Source: Hyphomicrobiales bacterium (GTDB taxonomy: Bacteria; Pseudomonadota; Alphaproteobacteria; Rhizobiales; Beijerinckiaceae). Taken from it: a stretch of 64,000 bases of DNA. The stretch is taken from assembly GCA_019247605.1 (NCBI GenBank), contig JAFBAS010000023.1, forward strand, positions 1-64,000, in the 5' to 3' direction. This document shows positions 44,160 to 54,498 of this stretch, in pieces (the stretch's first letter is position 1; each line of letters opens with the position of its first letter). A program made the translations under genes and the position numbers. The notes under the pieces are model-generated. The model did no database searches. It saw only the letters and a program-made list of their open reading frames with translations, and was not told the origin of the DNA.

Positions 44160-45743
44160 CTATTCGGCGGCAAGCGGCATCCTCTCGCCGAGCGCGCCGG
44201 AAGCATGCACCTTCTCGACTCGGCGCCGGTCGAATTTCAAGACATCGCGCAAGATCTCGTCAGTGTGCTCGCCGAGCAAGGGCGAACGTTTCACCTCGCT
44301 CACCGAATCCGACATCTTGATCGGATTTCCCACGGTCAGATACTTGCCGCGCGTGGGGTGATCCACCTCGACGATCGTGCCTGTCTTGCGCAGGGATTCC
44401 TCCTCGGCGAGCTCCTTCATCGAAAGGATCGGTCCGCAGGGGATGTCGTATTTGTTGAGCATGTCCATGGCCTCGAATTTCGTCTTGGTCATGGTCCATT
44501 TCTCGATCGTGTCGAAGATCTGCTTGAGGCGCGGGAGGCGCGCGGGCGGCTTCGCGTAATCGGGGTGGGTCTTCCACTCCGGCTTGCCGATCACGTCGCA
44601 GATCGCCTCCCAAACCGGCGCCTGCGTGATGAAGTAGATGTAGGCGTTGGGGTCCGTCTCCCAGCCCTTGCATTTCAATATCCAGCCCGGCTGGCCGCCA
44701 CCTGAATCATTGCCTGCGCGCGGCGTCGCGTCGCCGAACGGGATATTCTGCCCGTATTGGCTGTATTCCTTGAGCGGGCCATGCTTGAGGCGCTGTTGAT
44801 CGCGCAGCTTGACCCGGCACAGGTTGAGCACTCCGTCTTGCATCGCAGCGAGCACCTTCTGGCCGCGTCCGGTGCGGTTTCGCTGAAAAAGCGCGCACAC
44901 GATGCCGAGCGCGAGATGCAGCCCGGTGCCGCTGTCACCGATTTGCGCACCCGTGACGAGCGGAGGCCCATCGAGAAAGCCCGTGGTCGAAGCCGCACCA
45001 CCGGCGCATTGCGCGACGTTCTCGTAGACCTTGCAATCCTCATAGGGACCCGGACCGAAGCCCTTGACCGACGCCACGATCATGCGCGGATTGAGCTTGT
45101 GGATGTGCTCGAAGCCGAGTCCCATGCGCTCGAGTGCGCCGGGCGCGAAATTCTCAACCAGAACATCGCACGACTTCACGAGCGCCTCGAGAACCGCCTT
45201 GCCCTCGGGATGCTTGGAATCGATCGTGATCGAACGCTTGTTGTGGTTGAGCATCGTAAAATACAAGCTGTCGGCGTTGGGCACGTCGCGAAGCTGGCCG
45301 CGCGTGATGTCGCCGATGCCGGGGCGCTCCACCTTGATCACATCGGCTCCGAACCAGGCGAGGAGCTGGGTGCAGGTCGGGCCCGATTGCACATGGGTGA
45401 AGTCGAGAATGCGCACGCCGTCGAGTGCCTTGCCGCTCGCACCCCAGGGCTTGCGAGAGGGCGAGCGAAGCGCATCCGCCTTGGGCGCGCTCGCGACCGC
45501 GCGCGATCTGGTCAGGCGCTTGATGGCCGATTTCGGCGAAGGCTTGGAGGTGGAGCGCCTCGCGGCAGCCCTAGCGGCACTCTTTTTCTTGTCAGGCGCC
45601 TTGCGCGCTTGCGTCTTTGAACGCGTGGCCTTCTTTGCGGCCGCGCGCTTCGGCGCGGCTTTCGGCAGCACGCGCTTCCTGGTCGCCGTCCTTTTTTCGG
45701 CCGCCTTCCCTGCCCTGCTCGCTTTCTTTGCCGTCTTCGCCAT
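44160..45743 (-). CDS. frc: Formyl-CoA:oxalate CoA-transferase with histone-like N-terminal extension
   Basis: A class III CoA-transferase of 527 residues. The catalytic part (from about residue 107, [18 protein letters not shown]) closely resembles E. coli YfdW. It has D270 (QIGDSGTG) as the nucleophile, the glycine loop SGGGQPGW and [14 protein letters not shown]. It moves CoA from formyl-CoA to oxalate. The first ~105 residues, rich in Lys, Ala, Arg and Ser with almost no other residues, are absent from known Frc and resemble histone H1-like or AlgP tails. ATG 45743 has GGGAGA upstream and no later Met before the domain fits a better start. It is 20 bases downstream of the thiamine enzyme gene. 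Confidence 0.92.
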
Positions 45744-45763
45744 GGAAAGGATCTCCCGCTTCC

Positions 45764-47545
45764 TCACTTGTACATCGTCTGGTTCTTCGTGCCGGGCGCG
45801 TATTCATTCGGATCCACCCAAATGTTGACCACGGCCGATTTACCGCTCTTCGCGACCCGCTCTCGCGCTTCGCGCAAGGCCGGCGCGATCTTCCCGGCTT
45901 CGCGCACCTCGACGCCCCACCCTCCCCACATCTGCGGGAAGACGGAGAAGTTCATGTCGCCGAGCTTGTTGCCGATATTGCCACGCTGCGCGCCGTATTT
46001 GGCCAGCTGGCCATAGCGGATCTGATTCATCGCGGAGTTGTTGCCGATCACCGCGATGTAAGGCGCGCCGAAACGATCGGCGGTCTCCATGTCGAAGGCG
46101 GTCATGCCGAAGGAGCCGTCCCCGTAATAGCAAAGGACCTCCTTCTTCGGATGGGCGAGTTTCGCGGCGAGCGCGAAACCGGTGCCGACGCCGAGCGAAC
46201 CGAGAGCGCCGGGGTCCATCCAATTGCCGGGCCGACGCGGACGCACGGCTTGCGCCGAGATCGTCACCACGTCGCCTCCGTCGCCGATGTAGATCGTGTC
46301 GTCGGTGAGGAATTCGTTGATCTCATAGGCGACGCGGTAAGGGTGGATCGGCGATTGGTCCGAGGTGAACATCGCCATGAGCTTTTGCGTCGCTGCCTCT
46401 TCGGCCTGAGAAAGCTCCTTCATCCATTGCCGGCGTTGCTCGCGCTTATCCTTCTTCAGGCGCCCTGAAGCCGCCTGCAGCACCGCCGAGAGGACGGCAC
46501 CCGGATCTCCGACGATGCCGAGCGAGACGTCGCGGTTCTTGCCGACCGTCTTGTAGTCCATATCGATCTGCACCAGGGTCGGCACATTGATGCGCTTGCC
46601 GTAACCCATGCGAAAATCGAATGGCGTGCCGACGATCACGACGGCATCGGCTTTGCCGAAGGCGAGCGAACGCGTCCGGTCGAAATGATGCGGGTCGCCA
46701 GGCGGCAGGAGACCGCGGCTCGCCCCGTTGAAATAGCCCGGAATGTCAAGGCCTCGCAAAAGCGCGATCGCCTCCTCATGGCCGCGCGCCGCGAAAACCT
46801 GTTGCCCGAAAAGGATGGCGGGCCGTTCCGAGTTCACGAGGATGTCGGCAAGTCTTTCGATGTCGCGCGGATCGCCGCTCGATTTCGTCGAGGCGCGGTA
46901 ATGTCCAGATTTCGGCAGCACAGCCTTCGAGACATCGATCTCACGATCGAGCACGTCGCGCGGGATTTCGAGATATGAGGGCCCGTAAGCGCCCGCGAAG
47001 CATTCGCGCGCCGCCATAGAGATCATGTCGGCGACGCGCTCGGTCGACATCACCGTCGAAGCGAATTTCGTGATCGGCTTCATCATGTCGACATGCGGGA
47101 GATCCTGAAGCCCGCCCATCTTCCATTGATTGAGCGCGCTCTGGCCGCCGATATGAAGGACAGGACTCTCCGAGCGGAAGGCGGTCGCGATCCCGGTGAC
47201 CGCATTCGTGCAGCCGGGGCCGGCCGTCGTCACCACGCAGCCGAGCTTTCCGGTTTGGCGCGCATAGCCGTCGGCCGCGTGCGCGGCCGTCTGCTCGTGG
47301 CGGACATCGACGATGCGGATGCCTTCGTCGAGGCATCCGTCATAAATGTCGATGATGTGCCCGCCGCAAAGCGTGAAGATCGTGTCGACGCCTTCGGCCT
47401 TGAGCGCCTTGGCCACGAGATGACCGCCCGAGACGACGTTCGCATCGCGGCTCTTCGCCTTGAGCGTGTCCTCGGCGGTCGTCCTTGCGGCAGACGGCTT
47501 TTCTCCGGCTTGCGCTTTCGTGTTCTGGGCGGCGTTCGTCGACAT
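45764..47545 (-). CDS. Thiamine-diphosphate enzyme, 2-hydroxyacyl-CoA lyase / acetolactate-synthase-like
   Basis: A 593-residue ThDP enzyme. The catalytic glutamate is E84 ([13 protein letters not shown]) and the ThDP/Mg motif is GDG (475-477) with NN (502-503). Neighbours suggest oxalyl-CoA decarboxylase, but it does not resemble OXC/YfdU closely. It has IFTLCGGHI in place of OXC's YGVVGIP and [10 protein letters not shown] (L146-Q147) where OXC has DYEEMDQ; its C-terminal half reads like ILVBL/HACL2-type proteins ([15 protein letters not shown]). HACL cuts 2-hydroxyacyl-CoA into formyl-CoA and an aldehyde. An Ala/Lys-rich 35-residue N-terminal leader precedes the domain. It is directly upstream of frc, with ribosome site AAAGGAG. 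Role in oxalate use versus hydroxy-acid use is open. Confidence 0.85.
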
Positions 47546-47637
47546 GGCTTACTTAGTCTCCTTTCGGTGGATCGGACGCCCCAAACGGCAAAGCGCCGAC
47601 CGAAACGCGTCTCTCGATCTGGTTTCGGCTTCTTGTC

Positions 47638-48381
47638 CTATCCGGCCTTGCGGCGCCTTCCCTCTTCGGCCCCCTGCTGAAGGCCGTCCAGGAATGCGCC
47701 GTGGAGCTCGACATGCCGGGCAAGGCCGAGCGTGTGTTCTCGAACGAGGCGCTCGGCGAGATCGGCATCGCCTTTCTCGAGCGCCGAGATGATGTTCAGG
47801 TGGTCGATGATGGAGCGCTGCGCGCGATTGTCCTGGCGCATGGTGACGGCGCGCACCGCCCGCATATGGATGAAGAGGTCGTCGGTGAGCTCGCTCATCA
47901 AGCCGCACCCGCCCATGCGGATGATCGCTTTGTGAAACGCCATGTTGGCTTGCGAATACTCGCCGATATGCTCCGATGGATTCTCCTCGAATTGCGCGAA
48001 TAATTCGCGCAAATTCCGCAGCTCGCTCTTGCTCGCATTCTCGGCCGCGAAGCGCGCCGCGAGACTTTCGATCGCGGCCCATACGGTGATCATCTCGATC
48101 ACCTCGCGCTTCGTCTTGCGGACCACATATATCCCGCGGCGCGGAACGGACCGCACGAAGCCTTCCTGCTCCAGCACGCTCAGCGCTTCCCGGATCGGCG
48201 TGCGGCTCACGCCGAGGTCTTTGGACAACTGCCGCTCATCGAGGCGAATTTCGCCCGCGCAGCCATAGATATCCATTTCGGTAATGGCGCGCTTGATGGC
48301 GTCACAAGCAAGCCGCCGCAAGCCGACGCTCACACGCAGGGGTTCGACCTTGAGGCGCGGAAAGGCGCTCACATCGGTCAT
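47638..48381 (-). CDS. GntR family regulator, FadR/FCD subgroup
   Basis: A 247-residue regulator. N-terminal winged helix: RLDERQLSKDLGVSRTPIREALSVLEQEGFV, with the GVSRTPIREAL recognition motif of the group. The C-terminal all-helical FCD domain (from about residue 95) has Asp/His metal-binding candidates (SQANMAFHKAIIRM, TMRQDNRAQRSIIDHLNI). FCD regulators usually sense small carboxylic acids and loosen on binding. It lies 92 bases upstream of the thiamine enzyme gene on the same strand and is the natural candidate to control the cluster. ATG 48381 chosen; 17 upstream in-frame residues are discarded. Confidence 0.9.
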   Translation of the reverse strand: MTDVSAFPRLKVEPLRVSVGLRRLACDAIKRAITEMDIYGCAGEIRLDERQLSKDLGVSRTPIREALSVLEQEGFVRSVPRRGIYVVRKTKREVIEMITVWAAIESLAARFAAENASKSELRNLRELFAQFEENPSEHIGEYSQANMAFHKAIIRMGGCGLMSELTDDLFIHMRAVRAVTMRQDNRAQRSIIDHLNIISALEKGDADLAERLVREHTLGLARHVELHGAFLDGLQQGAEEGRRRKAG

Positions 48382-48421
48382 TTTCGGGCGCCTCCCAGGT
48401 GCCAAGCGGGTGTTCTGTATA

Positions 48422-48431
48422 TGGTATGCCA
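48422..48431. promoter_or_regulatory. Possible GntR operator
   Basis: TGGTATGCCA, a TGG-N4-CCA inverted repeat of the kind bound by FadR-type regulators, lies 40 bases upstream of the GntR start. This would fit autoregulation. The site is short and unproved. Confidence 0.35.
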
Positions 48432-48662
48432 CGGGTTCCAGGAGTCAACCAATGCGCCGCACGGATAGGATGTCCCAACGAAACGCGCGTGAGCTCAAAC
48501 ACGAGCTTCTTCAGGATTCCTGCTCGATCCACGGTCACGCAAACATCCCCTATCGACGTGCCGTCCGCCATGAGCTGGCACGCTCGCGCTCGAGAGATCG
48601 CTTTCGCGACGCGGCAAATAACTCGAATATCGAGAGCTAGGCCCGAGCCACCAGGCGGGCCC

Positions 48663-48962
48663 TCATCTCACGGCGTAGTGCAACATCGTGACACCGCCCG
48701 TCGCGTAATTCGGCACGTCGCCGGCGACCGCCTTTCCTTCTTTCGATTGCAACGCGGCCATGAGCGCGGCTTCGTTTTCGAACTCCGCTTCGAAAATGCA
48801 GAAATGAGCCTTTCCCGGGCCGAGAGGCTTTGCGTCGAAGGTGAAGCGGCTGGACTTAAGGCCCGGGAGCTTGCTCGCGAGCGGCACGTGCGTCTCGACG
48901 TAGTATTTGCGGAAATGAGCCGGGTCCTTCGGCTCGTTATAAAGAACGAGAAGCTTATGCAC
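48663..48962 (-). CDS. EthD-family protein
   Basis: A 99-residue alpha/beta-barrel ferredoxin-like protein. The sequence begins MHKLLVLYNEPKDPAHFRKYYVETHVPLASKLPGL, with the EthD hallmark H-x-P-L after a tyrosine-rich helix, and ends GGVTMLHYAVR. EthD proteins form dimers and include small decarboxylases, lyases and helper proteins of unknown activity. It stands alone between the GntR gene (281 bases) and the M19 gene (88 bases), all on one strand, and may process an unstable intermediate of the cluster. Confidence 0.88.
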   Translation of the reverse strand: MHKLLVLYNEPKDPAHFRKYYVETHVPLASKLPGLKSSRFTFDAKPLGPGKAHFCIFEAEFENEAALMAALQSKEGKAVAGDVPNYATGGVTMLHYAVR

Positions 48963-49050: not shown

Positions 49051-50016
49051 TTATCCGAAGACCTCGCGATAGACGCGCAGCCAATTGGCCGCGGTGATCT
49101 TTTCGCATTCCTCTTCGGAAAAGCCGACGCGCTTCAAGCCTCCCCTCACCTTGCTCAGATCGGACGGGCGGGTCAGCCAACGCGGGTCGGTCACCGGATC
49201 TGCGGTCGCCGCGGAGCCCGCGCCATAATTGACGGTGCGCGACCAGCGCCCCATGCGCATCCAATCGAGATAGGCGCGATCGCCTTTGTGGATAAGATCG
49301 GTGCCGATCCCGACGTGATCGATTCCGGCGATGTCGACGGTTCGCGCGACCATCTCGCACCAGCTCTCGATGCTGTCGCAAGCAGCTGCCGGCGTGATGT
49401 TGCGGTAGGTGACGCAACCGATGATGCCCCCCTTTTGGCTCAGCGCCTTGATCACCGCATCGCTCTTGTTGCGCCGATGGGGGAAGAGCGAAGCCGCATT
49501 CGCATGCGTCACCGCCACGGGCTTTTGCGAACATTCGATCGTGTCGAGCGTCGTTTTCTCGCCGACATGGGAGAGATCGATCAGCACGCCCGTGCGATTC
49601 ATCTCGCGCACGACCTCGCGACCGAAGCGCGAAAGGCCACCATCGACATCCTCGTAACAACTCCCGCCGAGCTCGTTTTGATTGTTGTAGGTGAGCTGCA
49701 TGACGCGCACGCCAAGCTCGGCGAAGAGCTCGACAAAACGAATGCGGCCTTCGAGGCAGTTGCTGTTCTGAAAGCCGAGGAGGAGGGCCACTCGATTGCT
49801 TTGGTGCGCCGAGAGGATGTCGGCCGTCGAGCGCGCGATGAGAACCGCATCCGCGCACTCGCTTGCGAGGTCGCGCCATTGCCCGAGCGCGTCGAGGGAT
49901 TCGAGCGTTCCTTCCCAAAAGCCGAGCGTCGGCGTCACGCACGTAAAGCCGCCTCGCCGCAATTCCTCGAAAACTGCACGGTCGTAAAAGCCGCATTGCA
50001 GGGCGTCGATGAGCAT
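49051..50016 (-). CDS. Peptidase M19 (membrane dipeptidase family) homologue
   Basis: A 321-residue TIM-barrel amidohydrolase of family M19. It retains the later metal-site motifs: ELGGSCYEDVDGGLSRFG (Glu region), VLIDLSHVG, PVAVTHANAAS and GIGTDL. The N-terminal HxD motif that normally opens the family (DGHNDLP) is missing: the protein begins MLIDALQCGFYDR. Members hydrolyse dipeptides and some amide bonds; a variant metal site suggests a changed substrate or mechanism. A subgroup with this N-terminus is known from other proteobacteria, so it is not a truncation artefact. Strong AAGGAGAAGAGG ribosome site. The Tat/Sec signal or anchor of classical members is absent. Confidence 0.88.
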   Translation of the reverse strand: MLIDALQCGFYDRAVFEELRRGGFTCVTPTLGFWEGTLESLDALGQWRDLASECADAVLIARSTADILSAHQSNRVALLLGFQNSNCLEGRIRFVELFAELGVRVMQLTYNNQNELGGSCYEDVDGGLSRFGREVVREMNRTGVLIDLSHVGEKTTLDTIECSQKPVAVTHANAASLFPHRRNKSDAVIKALSQKGGIIGCVTYRNITPAAACDSIESWCEMVARTVDIAGIDHVGIGTDLIHKGDRAYLDWMRMGRWSRTVNYGAGSAATADPVTDPRWLTRPSDLSKVRGGLKRVGFSEEECEKITAANWLRVYREVFG

Positions 50017-50067: not shown

Positions 50068-50700
50068 TCAATCATTGTCGATCTCGCCCGCGCCCGCGCC
50101 GCTCGATCGCGACTTCGCGCTCGCTGGCACATAGGTGAGGGCCTCGTATTCCTGCAGCCTTGCCCATGAGGCATCCTCAATCACCGCCCCGCCTGCTGAG
50201 CCCTCGTGTGTCCAAGCTCCGGTCCAACCTCCTTCGAATGAGGAAAGGCTCACCTCTTCGGCTTGGCTCGCGGCAAGAGCACGAACCTCGCCCGAGACGA
50301 GCATGATGCCCAGGGGGCCTACCCGAAGCCTCACCTCGTTCCAAGCCACATCGGTTTTCGCCATCGCGCGCGAGGCGAACGGCAGAATGAGGAGCGGTGA
50401 CACCAGGCGCTCGAGGCTCGTCACGCATGCCTCGCTAAGATCGGAAAGATAGGCGCCTGCGCGGATGGGACAAAGCCAGCCATCGGCGCGCCCGGATCTC
50501 AACCTCGCGCCTTCGAGAACGGGAGTTGCCTCCCAGGCGCGCGTGGAAAACAGGTGGAGGAAAGGCGTTTCGAAAGGAAGCCGGAAACGGGCGAGGAAAC
50601 GGGCAGCTTGCGCTGCCTCTTCGGCGAGGCCCCACTCCATTCCCGCGCCGCGCGCCGCCTTGAGGATAGTGGACTCGACCTCGTTGAATGAGACGATCAT
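50068..50700 (-). CDS. DUF3726 protein
   Basis: A 210-residue protein recognised by its N-terminus IVSFNEVESTILKAARGAGMEWGLAEEAAQAARFLARFRLP, the DUF3726 pattern. Function unknown. ATG 50700 overlaps the preceding gene's stop as ATGA (50700-50697), so it is translationally coupled. The middle part (GPLGIMLVSGEVRALAASQAEEVSLSSFEGGW) is typical; the last 30 residues are Ser/Gly-rich. An upstream in-frame start at 50727 lies inside the preceding gene and is not used. Confidence 0.85.
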   Translation of the reverse strand: MIVSFNEVESTILKAARGAGMEWGLAEEAAQAARFLARFRLPFETPFLHLFSTRAWEATPVLEGARLRSGRADGWLCPIRAGAYLSDLSEACVTSLERLVSPLLILPFASRAMAKTDVAWNEVRLRVGPLGIMLVSGEVRALAASQAEEVSLSSFEGGWTGAWTHEGSAGGAVIEDASWARLQEYEALTYVPASAKSRSSGAGAGEIDND

Positions 50701-52379
50701 TCCCCATAAATCCATCGCTCGGAGCACTGGGCCGCGAGCTCATCGGGAAAAGGCGCGCCCTGAAAAAGTGTGATCCGCACCCAGCGATCCGAACGCGGAT
50801 CGAAGCGCGTCGCGCCGAAAAAGGCGAGCTTGCAACGTAAGAGATCGATCGGCCTCAAGCTCGCCCCGATGAGATTGTCGCGTATCTCGGAATACGGGTG
50901 GCGCCCGGCAATCTGGACGCGGCGCACCGCGTGGCGATGCTCGGGGTGCGCGAGAAGAAAAGCCGCGACCCTCGTGTGGCGCTCTTCCCGATCGAGCGCC
51001 GCCGCAAGCGCTGCAACCTCGCGCGCGATGGCGAGCGGTTGCTCGCGTTCCATACCCTCCTCTTCGAAGCGCTCGCCGAGGCGCGGCTCGAGCTTCTCCT
51101 CGGAAACGTACCAGAAGCGAGCGAGCGCTCGACTTTGGGAGAAATCGAGTTCGAGCGCCCAGGCATAATCGCGCGCGATCGAGCGTCGCAGCGTTTCACA
51201 GCTCATTCTCCCGTCGATCCGGAAACTTGCCGTCTCGTCGATGGCCATCGTCTCGGCAAGATCGTCGATGAGCGCGCCATGAGGCTCGATGAGGAGAGTC
51301 ACCGCGTATTCCTGGCCCTCGAGCGTCAAATTTTCTCGCGCAAAGCGCCAGATCGCTTCCCAAGGGCAAGGACCCGCGAAGACCTTTTCGCTCGCGAAGC
51401 GCTCCAGGCGCGACAAATCTTCCCCAAGCTCATCGATGCGGCGTGCTTGAATTTCATCGCTCGTCACCCAACGAACGATGCAGCGGCGCGAGCATTGCAG
51501 CGTGGCGCGAAAGACCGCAACCGATTCTCGACTTGCGTGACGCAGCTCACGAACGCGGGCGAGCGCGGTCTCGCGCGCCGTGATCCAGCGGTCGACGAGA
51601 GCCGGGTGCTTCACGAGGAAAGGCGCCATGCCGAGCCCCGTCGCGTTGCCGATGCCGAAGCGACGACGAAGGCGCCCGTCGAGTAACGCGGCCTTCGCAC
51701 CTCCTCGCAAACGCGCCAGATGCTCGACGAGATCGAGCGTGAAGATCCGGATCAGATATACGGTGAGCATCTCAGCACGGAAAGGCGCCGAGAGCTCCGG
51801 CCGGTCCGCAATCATGTCGCGATCGGCGATGCCGAACTTGCCATTGCCGTAAACGGCTGTCGTGCGCATCAAATAGCCGATCGCCTCGACGGAGGCTTCA
51901 TCGGGCTGACGTCCTTGCGCGAGCGAATCGAGCACGTGATCGAAGAGGCGCACGCTGCGATTGGCGCGCGCCAGCACGAGCTCGGTCGCAAGATAGCGGC
52001 CCGCCTCTTGCCGCGGCACATTGGCCGCAAGACGCGCCACGTCTTGCCGATTGGGCAGCCCATCGAAAAGAACGAAGGTCGCGTCCCAGGCTTGTGCGAT
52101 GACGCGATCGGTCCGCTCGTCGGGCGCAAGCTCATGGCCGAAGGCGACGAGGCTCAGTAAGCGGCCTTTGACGTCGACTGTGTAGATCGCCTTGCCGACG
52201 CCGCGCTCGTCGATATCGAAGGCGTGCTTCGCGACGCGCCAGTTCTCGTCGCGCATGCGGCGCAACAAGGCGCGAAGAAAGCTCAATCGTGTCTGGTGCG
52301 CGCTGCCGAGACGCGAAAGCCGCATCACCTCGTTGGGTGGCCGCAGCGACAGCGCTTTCGTCGGAAGGTGGACGGTCAC
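50697..52379 (-). CDS. Unknown 560-residue protein coupled to methyltransferase and DUF3726 genes
   Basis: A large soluble protein of 560 residues lacking any domain I can name. It is rich in Arg, Leu and Glu, likely mostly helical, with conserved-looking blocks LSRLGSAHQTRLSFLRALLRRM, TYTVDVKGR..LVAFGHELAPDERTDRVIAQAWDATF-like text near residues 60-110 and RYLATELVLARANRSVRLFDHVLDSL. GTG start overlaps the methyltransferase stop (GTGA) and its own stop overlaps the DUF3726 start, so all three should be co-translated. It contains several Trp in motif-like positions (CPWEAIWRFA, YAWALEL), which suggests an enzyme or a large scaffold rather than filler. Function unknown. Confidence 0.8.
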   Translation of the reverse strand: MTVHLPTKALSLRPPNEVMRLSRLGSAHQTRLSFLRALLRRMRDENWRVAKHAFDIDERGVGKAIYTVDVKGRLLSLVAFGHELAPDERTDRVIAQAWDATFVLFDGLPNRQDVARLAANVPRQEAGRYLATELVLARANRSVRLFDHVLDSLAQGRQPDEASVEAIGYLMRTTAVYGNGKFGIADRDMIADRPELSAPFRAEMLTVYLIRIFTLDLVEHLARLRGGAKAALLDGRLRRRFGIGNATGLGMAPFLVKHPALVDRWITARETALARVRELRHASRESVAVFRATLQCSRRCIVRWVTSDEIQARRIDELGEDLSRLERFASEKVFAGPCPWEAIWRFARENLTLEGQEYAVTLLIEPHGALIDDLAETMAIDETASFRIDGRMSCETLRRSIARDYAWALELDFSQSRALARFWYVSEEKLEPRLGERFEEEGMEREQPLAIAREVAALAAALDREERHTRVAAFLLAHPEHRHAVRRVQIAGRHPYSEIRDNLIGASLRPIDLLRCKLAFFGATRFDPRSDRWVRITLFQGAPFPDELAAQCSERWIYGE

Positions 52380-53485
52380 GGAGGCGCTTTGCGACAGACG
52401 AGATGCACGTGGATGTAATCCATGCCATGGCCTTCAGGCGCCGCGGCGACCGCATCCCGATAGCGCGTGAAGAAGGTGTCGAGAATACGCATGCGCTCTT
52501 GTGCGGGTCGCGCGCCGGAAAGCCCGGCCGCGAAGGTCGGCTCGCTCCAGGAGCGCAGCGTCGGGATGTACTCGTTCGCGAATTTTGTCGCCTCCTTGTG
52601 CTCGGCGAAAGCCTTTGCGTACGGGCAAACGAGATGCCTTGATTCTACATGCTCGAGGCGAAGCCCCGCCCGATAAGCGGAGCTTGCTTCGTCCTTCAGC
52701 GGGGCGACGAACTCCTCGACGGTGCGGTAGACCTGCGGGAAATTCGTATTCGCATATTCGGCCTCGGTGATGGTGCCCTCGGCCGCGAGCTCTCGCCAAA
52801 GCCGGTTGAACATGTCGAACATGCTCACCCCGCCCGTATGGCCGAGATAGCGCCCTTTTTCGTCGATGCCGAAATTGAGGAAGACCAGCCTGCCGGCGGG
52901 GACAAGCTCACGGGCCCTCAAGGTGAGGAGGTTCGCCCATTCGTCGCGCCCGACCGCCTCATAGGCGCGGCGCTCAGCACCGCTCGCACCCACCATATGC
53001 ACGTGATCGCTGATGTTGCAGGGCACCTTCGAGATGTAGTGGGAAGCGGTTGCCGAGAAGACGAGGTTCACGCTCTCGGCCGCGAATATCTTCTGATGAA
53101 AAGAAGTGCCGGAGGCATAAGGGTAAATCTCATCGAGCTCTCCCTGATAGCTCTCGATGTCGGTCTGGTTGTGGATCGTGCGGAAGAGCTGGCTGAAGTC
53201 GTTGCGCGGCAAATCCGTGTAGACGATCTCGATGGGGCGCGATGGGAACTTGCGGCGCAAATGGGCGAGCACCTTGCGCCACATGCCCATCGAAGTACCG
53301 CCGTCCGCACACCCCATATCGGCGACGCGAACGCGCGTTGCGTCGTCGGCGAGGTTCATCCGATCCACCGCGGCGATGATCAAGGGGGTCGCGAGATTGA
53401 TGACGTCGCGCGCGCCTGTCGTCGCTTTGGAATAATAGCCGGCGCCCTTCATGGCCATGAAACCGGCGGTTTCGTTCATGGTCAT
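52376..53485 (-). CDS. SABATH-like SAM-dependent carboxyl methyltransferase
   Basis: A 369-residue enzyme of the plant-type Methyltransf_7 family, which methylates carboxyl groups of small acids (salicylate, jasmonate, and others in plants). Support: GAGYYSKATTGARDVINLATPLI near the N-terminus (plant enzymes read ...SYAKNS...QSNII), the SAM motif VADMGCADGGTS (54-65), and YTDLPRNDFSQLF (89-101), which matches the plant LNDLPSNDFN block. The substrate pocket cannot be read. ATG 53485 has a GAGG site and lies 8 bases after the Ldh stop. The longer frame to 53698 overlaps Ldh and is rejected. Confidence 0.9.
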   Translation of the reverse strand: MTMNETAGFMAMKGAGYYSKATTGARDVINLATPLIIAAVDRMNLADDATRVRVADMGCADGGTSMGMWRKVLAHLRRKFPSRPIEIVYTDLPRNDFSQLFRTIHNQTDIESYQGELDEIYPYASGTSFHQKIFAAESVNLVFSATASHYISKVPCNISDHVHMVGASGAERRAYEAVGRDEWANLLTLRARELVPAGRLVFLNFGIDEKGRYLGHTGGVSMFDMFNRLWRELAAEGTITEAEYANTNFPQVYRTVEEFVAPLKDEASSAYRAGLRLEHVESRHLVCPYAKAFAEHKEATKFANEYIPTLRSWSEPTFAAGLSGARPAQERMRILDTFFTRYRDAVAAAPEGHGMDYIHVHLVCRKAPP

Positions 53486-53493
53486 CTTGCCTC

Positions 53494-54498
53494 TTACGCG
53501 CGAGCGAGCGCGCCTACCTTTTCGAGAATTCCCGCATCCACGACGACGCCTTCGCGCTCTGCTTTTTCTCGCGCCTCGCGACGCCGTTTTCCCGGCACAT
53601 GGGCCGAACGCTCCTCGGTCAGCACCGCCATGAGTTGCGAAAGGCGCGCTTGGAACTCTCCGCCGGAAGCAGCACCAGGCGCGATTGCGATGAAGCATTG
53701 ACCCGTTTTGGGCGGCCCGCCCGCCGTGCCCGAAAAGGGACTCGCCTTCGCGCCGATTGTCGCGCCGGTGAGACAGGCCGCCATCAATTCCACCAAGAGC
53801 GCGGAGCCCACGCCCTTGTAGCCCCCGGCGGGCAGCATCGTGCCTTTCAAGCCGACATTCGGATCCGTGGTCGGTTCGCCCTCGGGGGAAAGCGCCCAGC
53901 CGAGCGGGATGGCCTTGCCTTCACGCGCGCGCTTCGCCACCTCGCTCTTGGCGACCACGCTCGCGCTTTGATCGATGACGATAGGCGCGCCGCCTCGACC
54001 GTCCGGGACGGCGATCGACCAGGGATTGGTGCCGAGCACAGGCTTGCGACCGCCCGACGCCGCGATCGAGGCGGGCGCATTGGTGAAGCCGAGGGCCAAG
54101 AGCCCCTCGCTCGCGAGCCTTTCGGTGTGGTAGCCGAGCACGCCGCAATTATAGGAATTGCGGATCCCCAAGAGAGCCACGCCCTGCGAGCGCGCAAGCG
54201 GCGCGAGCACCGCCAACCCAGCATCGATCGCGGGATGCGCGAACCCCGAGCCCGCATCGACGACGACGACGCCCGGCAAATCCTGGCTCAGGCGTGGCAT
54301 CGCCGAGCCGATCACTTTTCCGCAAGCAAGATGCTCGCAATAGGTGGGAAGATAGGCAAGCCCGTGCGATGGGATGCCGTCGCGCTCGGCGGCCGCGATC
54401 GCCTTGGCAAGGCTCAATGCGGCGCCATCACTCGCTCCTGCCTTGACGAGGGCACCTCTCGCCATCTCCTCGATCTGGAGGATCGTCAACCTGGTCAT
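53494..54498 (-). CDS. Ldh family NAD(P)-dependent malate/L-lactate-type dehydrogenase
   Basis: A 334-residue member of the malate/lactate dehydrogenase family of the 'Ldh_2' fold (as in sulfolactate, ureidoglycolate and malate dehydrogenases), which reduces or oxidises 2-keto/2-hydroxy acids. Support: the N-terminal DGIPSHGLAYLPTYCEHL, SYNCGVLGYHTERLA with the conserved His, GGRKPVLGTNPWSIAVP, and GYKGVGSALLVELMAACLTGA. ATG 54498 chosen; 55 upstream in-frame residues are discarded as non-homologous. It is the first gene of the coupled module with the methyltransferase and unknown proteins. Confidence 0.9.
   Translation of the reverse strand: MTRLTILQIEEMARGALVKAGASDGAALSLAKAIAAAERDGIPSHGLAYLPTYCEHLACGKVIGSAMPRLSQDLPGVVVVDAGSGFAHPAIDAGLAVLAPLARSQGVALLGIRNSYNCGVLGYHTERLASEGLLALGFTNAPASIAASGGRKPVLGTNPWSIAVPDGRGGAPIVIDQSASVVAKSEVAKRAREGKAIPLGWALSPEGEPTTDPNVGLKGTMLPAGGYKGVGSALLVELMAACLTGATIGAKASPFSGTAGGPPKTGQCFIAIAPGAASGGEFQARLSQLMAVLTEERSAHVPGKRRREAREKAEREGVVVDAGILEKVGALARA

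Follow-up and report, generated by a model that had tools for sequence, protein, structure and literature searches.

The 64,000-nucleotide stretch analyzed here (the window; contig JAFBAS010000023.1 of assembly GCA_019247605.1, from a Hyphomicrobiales bacterium) carries a five-gene operon in which a SABATH methyltransferase is joined to a module made of a family-less 560-residue protein (unk560), a DUF3726 protein, and an M19-type amidohydrolase. Unk560, DUF3726, and M19 form a widespread recurrent module, whose neighbors in many loci include an aldehyde dehydrogenase (ALDH) and betaine importers of the BCCT or ProXWV kind. We put at about even the chances that the operon serves to break down a homarine-type N-methylated pyridine carboxylate (homarine is N-methylpicolinate), with SABATH N-methylating the unmethylated acid. 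The genes of the operon are:

53494-54498, reverse strand: Ldh_2 (type-2 malate/lactate) dehydrogenase, first gene of the run (PF02615, 1.2e-89)
52376-53485, reverse strand: SABATH methyltransferase (PF03492 Methyltransf_7, 4.4e-37)
50697-52379, reverse strand: unk560, a conserved, family-less protein of 560 amino acids with a GTG start; proposed ring-attacking enzyme
50068-50700, reverse strand: DUF3726 (PF12525, 5.2e-12); proposed partner subunit of unk560
49051-50016, reverse strand: M19-type amidohydrolase lacking HxD, the fifth operon gene (PF01244, 2.6e-74)

A first-pass annotation of this DNA had described four head-to-tail genes, separated by 8 bases in one place and overlapping by 4 in two others, all of which the coordinates bear out: 8 bases separate Ldh_2 from SABATH (53486-53493), SABATH overlaps unk560 by 4 bases at 52376-52379 (GTGA), and unk560 overlaps DUF3726 by 4 bases at 50697-50700 (ATGA). 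The four genes stand as listed there; the fifth, M19, which starts 51 bases downstream of DUF3726 on the same strand, had been overlooked.

When 84,980 species genomes were scanned with a sequence pattern, 374 relatives of unk560 emerged, of which 80 loci from other genomes were kept; plasmids hold 168 records. DUF3726 was found in 77 of the 80, and in eight loci (seven of the 80 and the Mesorhizobium locus L082) unk560 and DUF3726 are fused into one open frame. Neighbors were counted in 75 of the 80 loci (four had no called unk560 and one was dropped) using our own gene caller, whose training set was 28 plasmid genes and which overlooks genes on AT-rich contigs; the stricter score cut of this count labels DUF3726 in just 40 of the 75 loci, versus 77 of 80 in the fuller count. 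Within eight genes of unk560 we found M19 in 57 loci, ALDH in 46, BCCT in 36, and SABATH in 6. The same gene orders recur: ALDH-M19-BCCT-unk560-DUF3726 in L083 and L089, and ALDH-M19-unk560-DUF3726-Ldh_2 followed by a betaine ATP-binding cassette (ABC) system in L084 and L088. Annotated records give ALDH, M19, BCCT, unk560, and DUF3726 with an adjoining LysR gene in Ruegeria and Sulfitobacter, and LysR, ALDH, M19, unk560, DUF3726, Ldh_2, and a betaine ABC transporter in Aminobacter and Roseateles. An AT-rich genome of 1.2 Mb has a compact M19-unk560-DUF3726, to which two AT-rich 1.4-Mb genomes add a betaine ABC system and ALDH. In Sinorhizobium meliloti, a distant version of unk560, 32% identical, is accompanied by M19, an aminotransferase, a succinate-semialdehyde dehydrogenase (SSADH), RidA, and an ABC system of another kind. 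From the neighbor counts and recurring gene orders, we take unk560, DUF3726, and M19 to be the core and SABATH to be an add-on. SABATH was considered as a core member and rejected, since the module without it is far commoner. One Mesorhizobium locus (L015, 2784-18155) has M19-unk560-DUF3726-SABATH between hydroxyisourate hydrolase (HIUase)/xanthine dehydrogenase genes and urate oxidase; its molybdenum enzyme was considered as a pyridine hydroxylase and rejected, as NCBIfam identifies it as xanthine dehydrogenase above cut-off.

The first-pass annotation had named largely independent occurrence of the families as a refutation, and that is not what the genomes show: SABATH and unk560 are found together much more often than expected. 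In an order-level sample of 297 genomes, 33 have SABATH, 40 have unk560, and 27 have both, versus 4.4 expected (Fisher p = 6e-23, a test blind to shared ancestry); by genus, 15 of the 19 genera with SABATH have unk560 (p = 1e-9). In a class-level sample, unk560 is present in eight of nine SABATH genomes versus 39 of 289 overall (p = 5e-7), and in six of six genera. The first-pass annotation had suggested a dedicated pathway or complex, and the arrangement of the genes agrees with a dedicated unit, with unk560 and DUF3726 adjacent or fused and, in 16 of the 33 order-sample genomes that have SABATH, no more than 10 kb between SABATH and unk560. The SABATHs form two groups according to their similarity to the window protein, one with identities of 45.6% or above and a divergent one with 34% or below. 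Unk560 accompanies the former in 25 of 26 order-sample genomes and the latter in two of seven. Among the six order-sample SABATH genomes without unk560 (G417, G432, G437, G447, G567, and G593), the SABATH is of the divergent group in all but G432, an assembly that is 71% complete. Outside the order, in another family, M19-unk560-DUF3726-Ldh_2-SABATH are consecutive in G336 and G243; in G124, also outside the order, the gene at the place of DUF3726 has no Pfam match. These figures bear on the possibility that SABATH is independent in purpose and merely travels with the module, for instance on a common genomic island. Such independence would suit the 11 genomes, among the 27 that have both genes, in which SABATH is over 10 kb from unk560 or on a separate contig, as well as two genomes that carry the subfamily without unk560, G432 and, in the class sample, G318, the latter 100% complete. 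The contrast between 25 of 26 and two of seven, the 4-base gene overlap in the window, and the recurrence of the linkage in another order all point the other way, and we regard an independent SABATH as quite improbable.

The window SABATH scores 128.4 bits against PF03492 (curated cut-off 29.8) over residues 40-363. Its closest solved chain is 5f2k, a bacterial fatty acid O-methyltransferase, which we take to be the mycobacterial enzyme FAMT, followed by the plant salicylate methyltransferase SAMT; since a bacterial member of the family with this activity has been solved, the earlier statement that bacterial SABATH substrates are unknown was too strong. In SAMT, Gln25 anchors the substrate carboxylate. 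The corresponding column holds Ala in 40 of 40 sequences of the module-linked subfamily (some contigs being reached twice) and Gln in all six alignable divergent bacterial SABATHs, and at several further positions the subfamily likewise keeps a single residue that the divergent group does not share. The first-pass annotation had offered the making or clearing of a methyl ester of a small acid as an example of what the operon might do. In such a reading SABATH would make the ester and the other proteins would act on it or remove it, and by masking a carboxylate the ester would let the module attack the remainder of the molecule. Most solved relatives are indeed carboxyl methyltransferases, the nearest solved bacterial one included, and linkage of SABATH to the module says nothing on which atom is methylated. 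The uniform Ala at the Gln25 position argues against an ester, no methyl-esterase was recognized among those neighbors that were annotated (not all were), and because the module mostly lacks SABATH and lies beside betaine importers, its substrate needs no ester. The proposal found no positive support, and we consider it unlikely; catabolism of an N-methyl heterocycle is favored over it because of the betaine transporters and the DpkA-like imine reductase described below.

A second type of importer accompanies SABATH itself. A DctP-type solute-binding gene of the tripartite ATP-independent periplasmic (TRAP) class directly adjoins SABATH in 11 order-sample genomes and in G087; TRAP permease genes are present too in L162, L164, L165, and L192, and in L003 they lie upstream of M19. 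In L164 and L165 both systems are adjacent, the betaine ABC transporter with the core and the TRAP system with SABATH, as would be expected if the methylated and the unmethylated compound each had a route of entry. Other SABATH genes have other surroundings. In four loci of one bacterial family (L199, L200, L202, and L206), SABATH is flanked by a thioesterase, a DAO-type oxidoreductase, and, except in L206, a histone-deacetylase-like gene, and not by the core module. The divergent SABATHs of L107-L109 (G593, G447, and G417), about 30% identical to the window protein and with Gln at the Gln25 position where alignable, have conserved neighbors of their own, and no unk560 was found in these three genomes.

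In the pathway we favor, an N-methylpyridinium carboxylate would either be imported or be formed by S-adenosylmethionine (SAM)-dependent N-methylation by SABATH. In lineages with SABATH, including the window, an unmethylated pyridine carboxylate (picolinate, for example, TRAP-imported in several relatives) would thereby be converted to the betaine that the module accepts. Unk560 and DUF3726 would then attack the activated pyridinium ring, with DUF3726 serving as a scaffold or as a subunit that completes the active site; M19 would hydrolyze an amide-type (e.g. N-formyl) intermediate, and ALDH, where present, would oxidize an aldehyde. The DpkA-like Ldh_2 would reduce a C=N bond to give an N-methyl amino acid such as N-methylglutamate, from which sarcosine-oxidase-type or N-methylglutamate dehydrogenases would take off the methyl group. 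We suggest more tentatively, as one possibility among several, that in some Alphaproteobacteria N-methylation is paid for with SAM to prime the pyridine carboxylate so that unk560 and DUF3726 can open the pyridinium, making it an activation step and not detoxification or signaling.

Several observations beyond gene linkage fit this pathway. The window Ldh_2 is by far closest to delta1-piperideine-2-carboxylate reductase (1wtj, 1.8e-53; next match 1.4e-36), an enzyme whose substrate is a cyclic imine, a six-membered ring containing nitrogen and bearing a 2-carboxylate. It is otherwise a normal member of the Ldh_2 dehydrogenases (DpkA, YiaK, AllD), whose typical SHG motif is present as S44 H45 G46, invariant in five of five sequences. 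The ALDH scores best, below cut-off, against 2,5-dioxovalerate/alpha-ketoglutarate semialdehyde dehydrogenases, and the window genome has a homologue of sarcosine oxidase beta at 70% identity. At L088 the module is flanked by sarcosine oxidase, purU, and folD, that is, by N-methyl and formyl handling, which we count in favor of a pyridine carboxylate.

The same neighbors could be read as degrading some other non-aromatic betaine or N-heterocycle (for instance a betaine of proline or pipecolate, or a ring derived from a purine), with SABATH N-methylating the matching precursor. Betaine importers are general, the L015 block lies among purine-degradation genes, and SSADH and a transporter of a different kind accompany the distant version in S. 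meliloti. On the other side, the DpkA-like Ldh_2 and the oxoglutarate-semialdehyde-like ALDH suit a six-membered 2-carboxylate ring, and purine genes appear in a single locus among those annotated; we assign this reading a low probability. Alternatively, SABATH could make an N-methyl betaine osmolyte that the module recycles once salt stress ends. The betaine importers around the module would fit, and homarine itself is described as an osmolyte in the available text of PMC8269247. Co-localized TRAP importers and a single operon in several relatives suggest catabolism instead, and making and breaking down a compound from one transcript would be futile, so that an osmolyte cycle seems very improbable.

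The enzyme that we propose to attack the ring has no recognizable family: unk560 has no match in Pfam or NCBIfam up to E = 0.1, and its profile gave a single chance match (E = 0.58) against PDB sequences. Structure prediction of the 560-residue protein alone, proposed in the first-pass annotation, did give a confident model (predicted local distance difference test [pLDDT] 88.9, predicted template modeling score [pTM] 0.91) and no convincing PDB match; Foldseek and VIA-align returned none at E ≤ 0.001 and no Z ≥ 5 (best Z 4.7, root-mean-square deviation [rmsd] 4.3, 132 aligned). On this predicted model, unk560 appears to have no convincing counterpart in the PDB, and a missing match is no proof of a new fold.

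Its partner looks like a derivative of an enzyme family already present in the operon. The DUF3726 part (residues ~562-748) of the modeled fusion protein L037 (pTM 0.73; orientation of the two parts uncertain) retrieves Ldh_2 at all ranks from 1 to 15, with Z 9.9-11.8 (158-182 aligned, rmsd 3.4-3.9) and the next row at Z 5.8. For this model we used alignment A5 because DUF3726 rows seemed misplaced in the mixed alignment A1. DUF3726 would thus share the Ldh_2 fold over 158-182 residues, about half of a 340-residue Ldh_2, and lacks its SHG, which was not found in the 28-row DUF3726 alignment A4. Comparison of the DUF3726 and Ldh_2 profiles gives the same N-terminal register, but at a probability of just 1%, and the DUF3726 profile found nothing among PDB sequences. 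A near-invariant tail, SRxxGAGAGxxDND, is kept. Given the fold of the L037 fusion, the loss of SHG, and the kept tail, the modeling suggests a trimmed Ldh_2 recruited as the partner of unk560, and DUF3726 looks like a worn-down derivative of that family. A form of 126 residues (L056 11658-12038; Phreatobacter-type loci) retains little of the longer ones beyond their N-terminal region and C-terminal tail.

In M19 membrane dipeptidases, an N-terminal HxD provides metal ligands. HxD is missing from all 13 aligned M19 members, which have IDxxQ instead, with D4 and Q7 invariant, so the annotation as membrane dipeptidase is doubtful. Identity of the window M19 is 66% to its S. meliloti counterpart (L085 12419-13390, beside the distant unk560 paralogue) as against 42% to that of the congener L172, which suggests, from sequence identity, that M19 was swapped or replaced in the window relative to its own genus.

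A number of points weigh against a homarine-type pathway. What we observe is gene linkage; the substrate and every chemical step are what we infer from it. At the threshold used, none of the four genomes of the window's genus has ALDH, and neither a betaine nor a TRAP transporter was seen adjoining the window operon; because of both, the window variant may run differently. Betaine transporters equally fit aliphatic betaines, the L015 module lies among xanthine dehydrogenase and urate oxidase genes, and shared ancestry, ignored by the Fisher tests, may enter into the co-occurrence. Loss of HxD makes the hydrolase role of M19 uncertain. Identification of the module core with a homarine operon published in 2026 is, moreover, tentative.

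Beyond the operon, the window has at 44160-48962 a GntR regulator, an EthD-domain protein, a thiamine pyrophosphate (TPP) enzyme, and a formyl-CoA transferase (above the TIGR03253 cut-off). This is not a plain oxalate operon, since the TPP enzyme scores far under the oxalyl-CoA decarboxylase cut-off. The genes from GntR to the formyl-CoA transferase (44160-48432) were rejected as members of the unit because they adjoin the operon only in the window and in L174, which is of the same genus (L002 is the same contig); the 20-kb stretch examined in the congener L172 lacks them.

If the pathway is correct, a bacterial SABATH subfamily would gain a substrate class, the ring nitrogen of a pyridine carboxylate; methylation would prove to be a way of priming a ring for breakdown; and two families of hitherto no known function would acquire a role. 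Since unk560 is present in 39 of 289 class-sample genomes, including some of 1.2-1.6 Mb, the pathway may be relevant to the nitrogen cycle far outside this host.

The window SABATH shares its Pfam family and SAM-binding region with SAMT, the caffeine and trigonelline synthases, and mycobacterial FAMT. Compared with SAMT, its subfamily has Ala for Gln25, Tyr or Trp for Trp151, and an invariant His149, in the context of a probably catabolic operon. SABATH enzymes that N-methylate a pyridine carboxylate are known from coffee, where, according to the available text of PMC8877179, the trigonelline synthases CTgS1/2 act on nicotinate.

With regard to the rest of the pathway, we compared the module with two kinds of known system. 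Trigonelline and pyridine degradation (TgnABCDE, PyrABCDE) cleaves the ring to a formamide and an aldehyde, which are then handled by an ALDH and an amidohydrolase. Those systems begin with flavin monooxygenases, whereas unk560, our proposed ring enzyme, matched no solved fold; the division of labor is the same as the one proposed for the module. Ferrer-Gonzalez et al. (2026, Nat Microbiol 11:1531) reportedly describe homABCDR, four structural genes and a regulator, in Rhodobacterales and streamlined marine bacteria. This reported make-up resembles LysR-ALDH-M19-unk560-DUF3726; our literature search found no paper naming DUF3726 or 'homabcdr'. The available text of PMC13390433 cites the 2026 paper (its reference 55) for a conserved pathway of homarine that involves N-methylglutamate dehydrogenase. 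The window unit differs from the homarine operon in having SABATH and Ldh_2 and in having neither ALDH nor a betaine transporter next to it. Should the core prove to be the published hom operon, it would be known already, and the novelty here would lie in the branch with SABATH, in the derivation of DUF3726 from Ldh_2, and in the changed site of M19.

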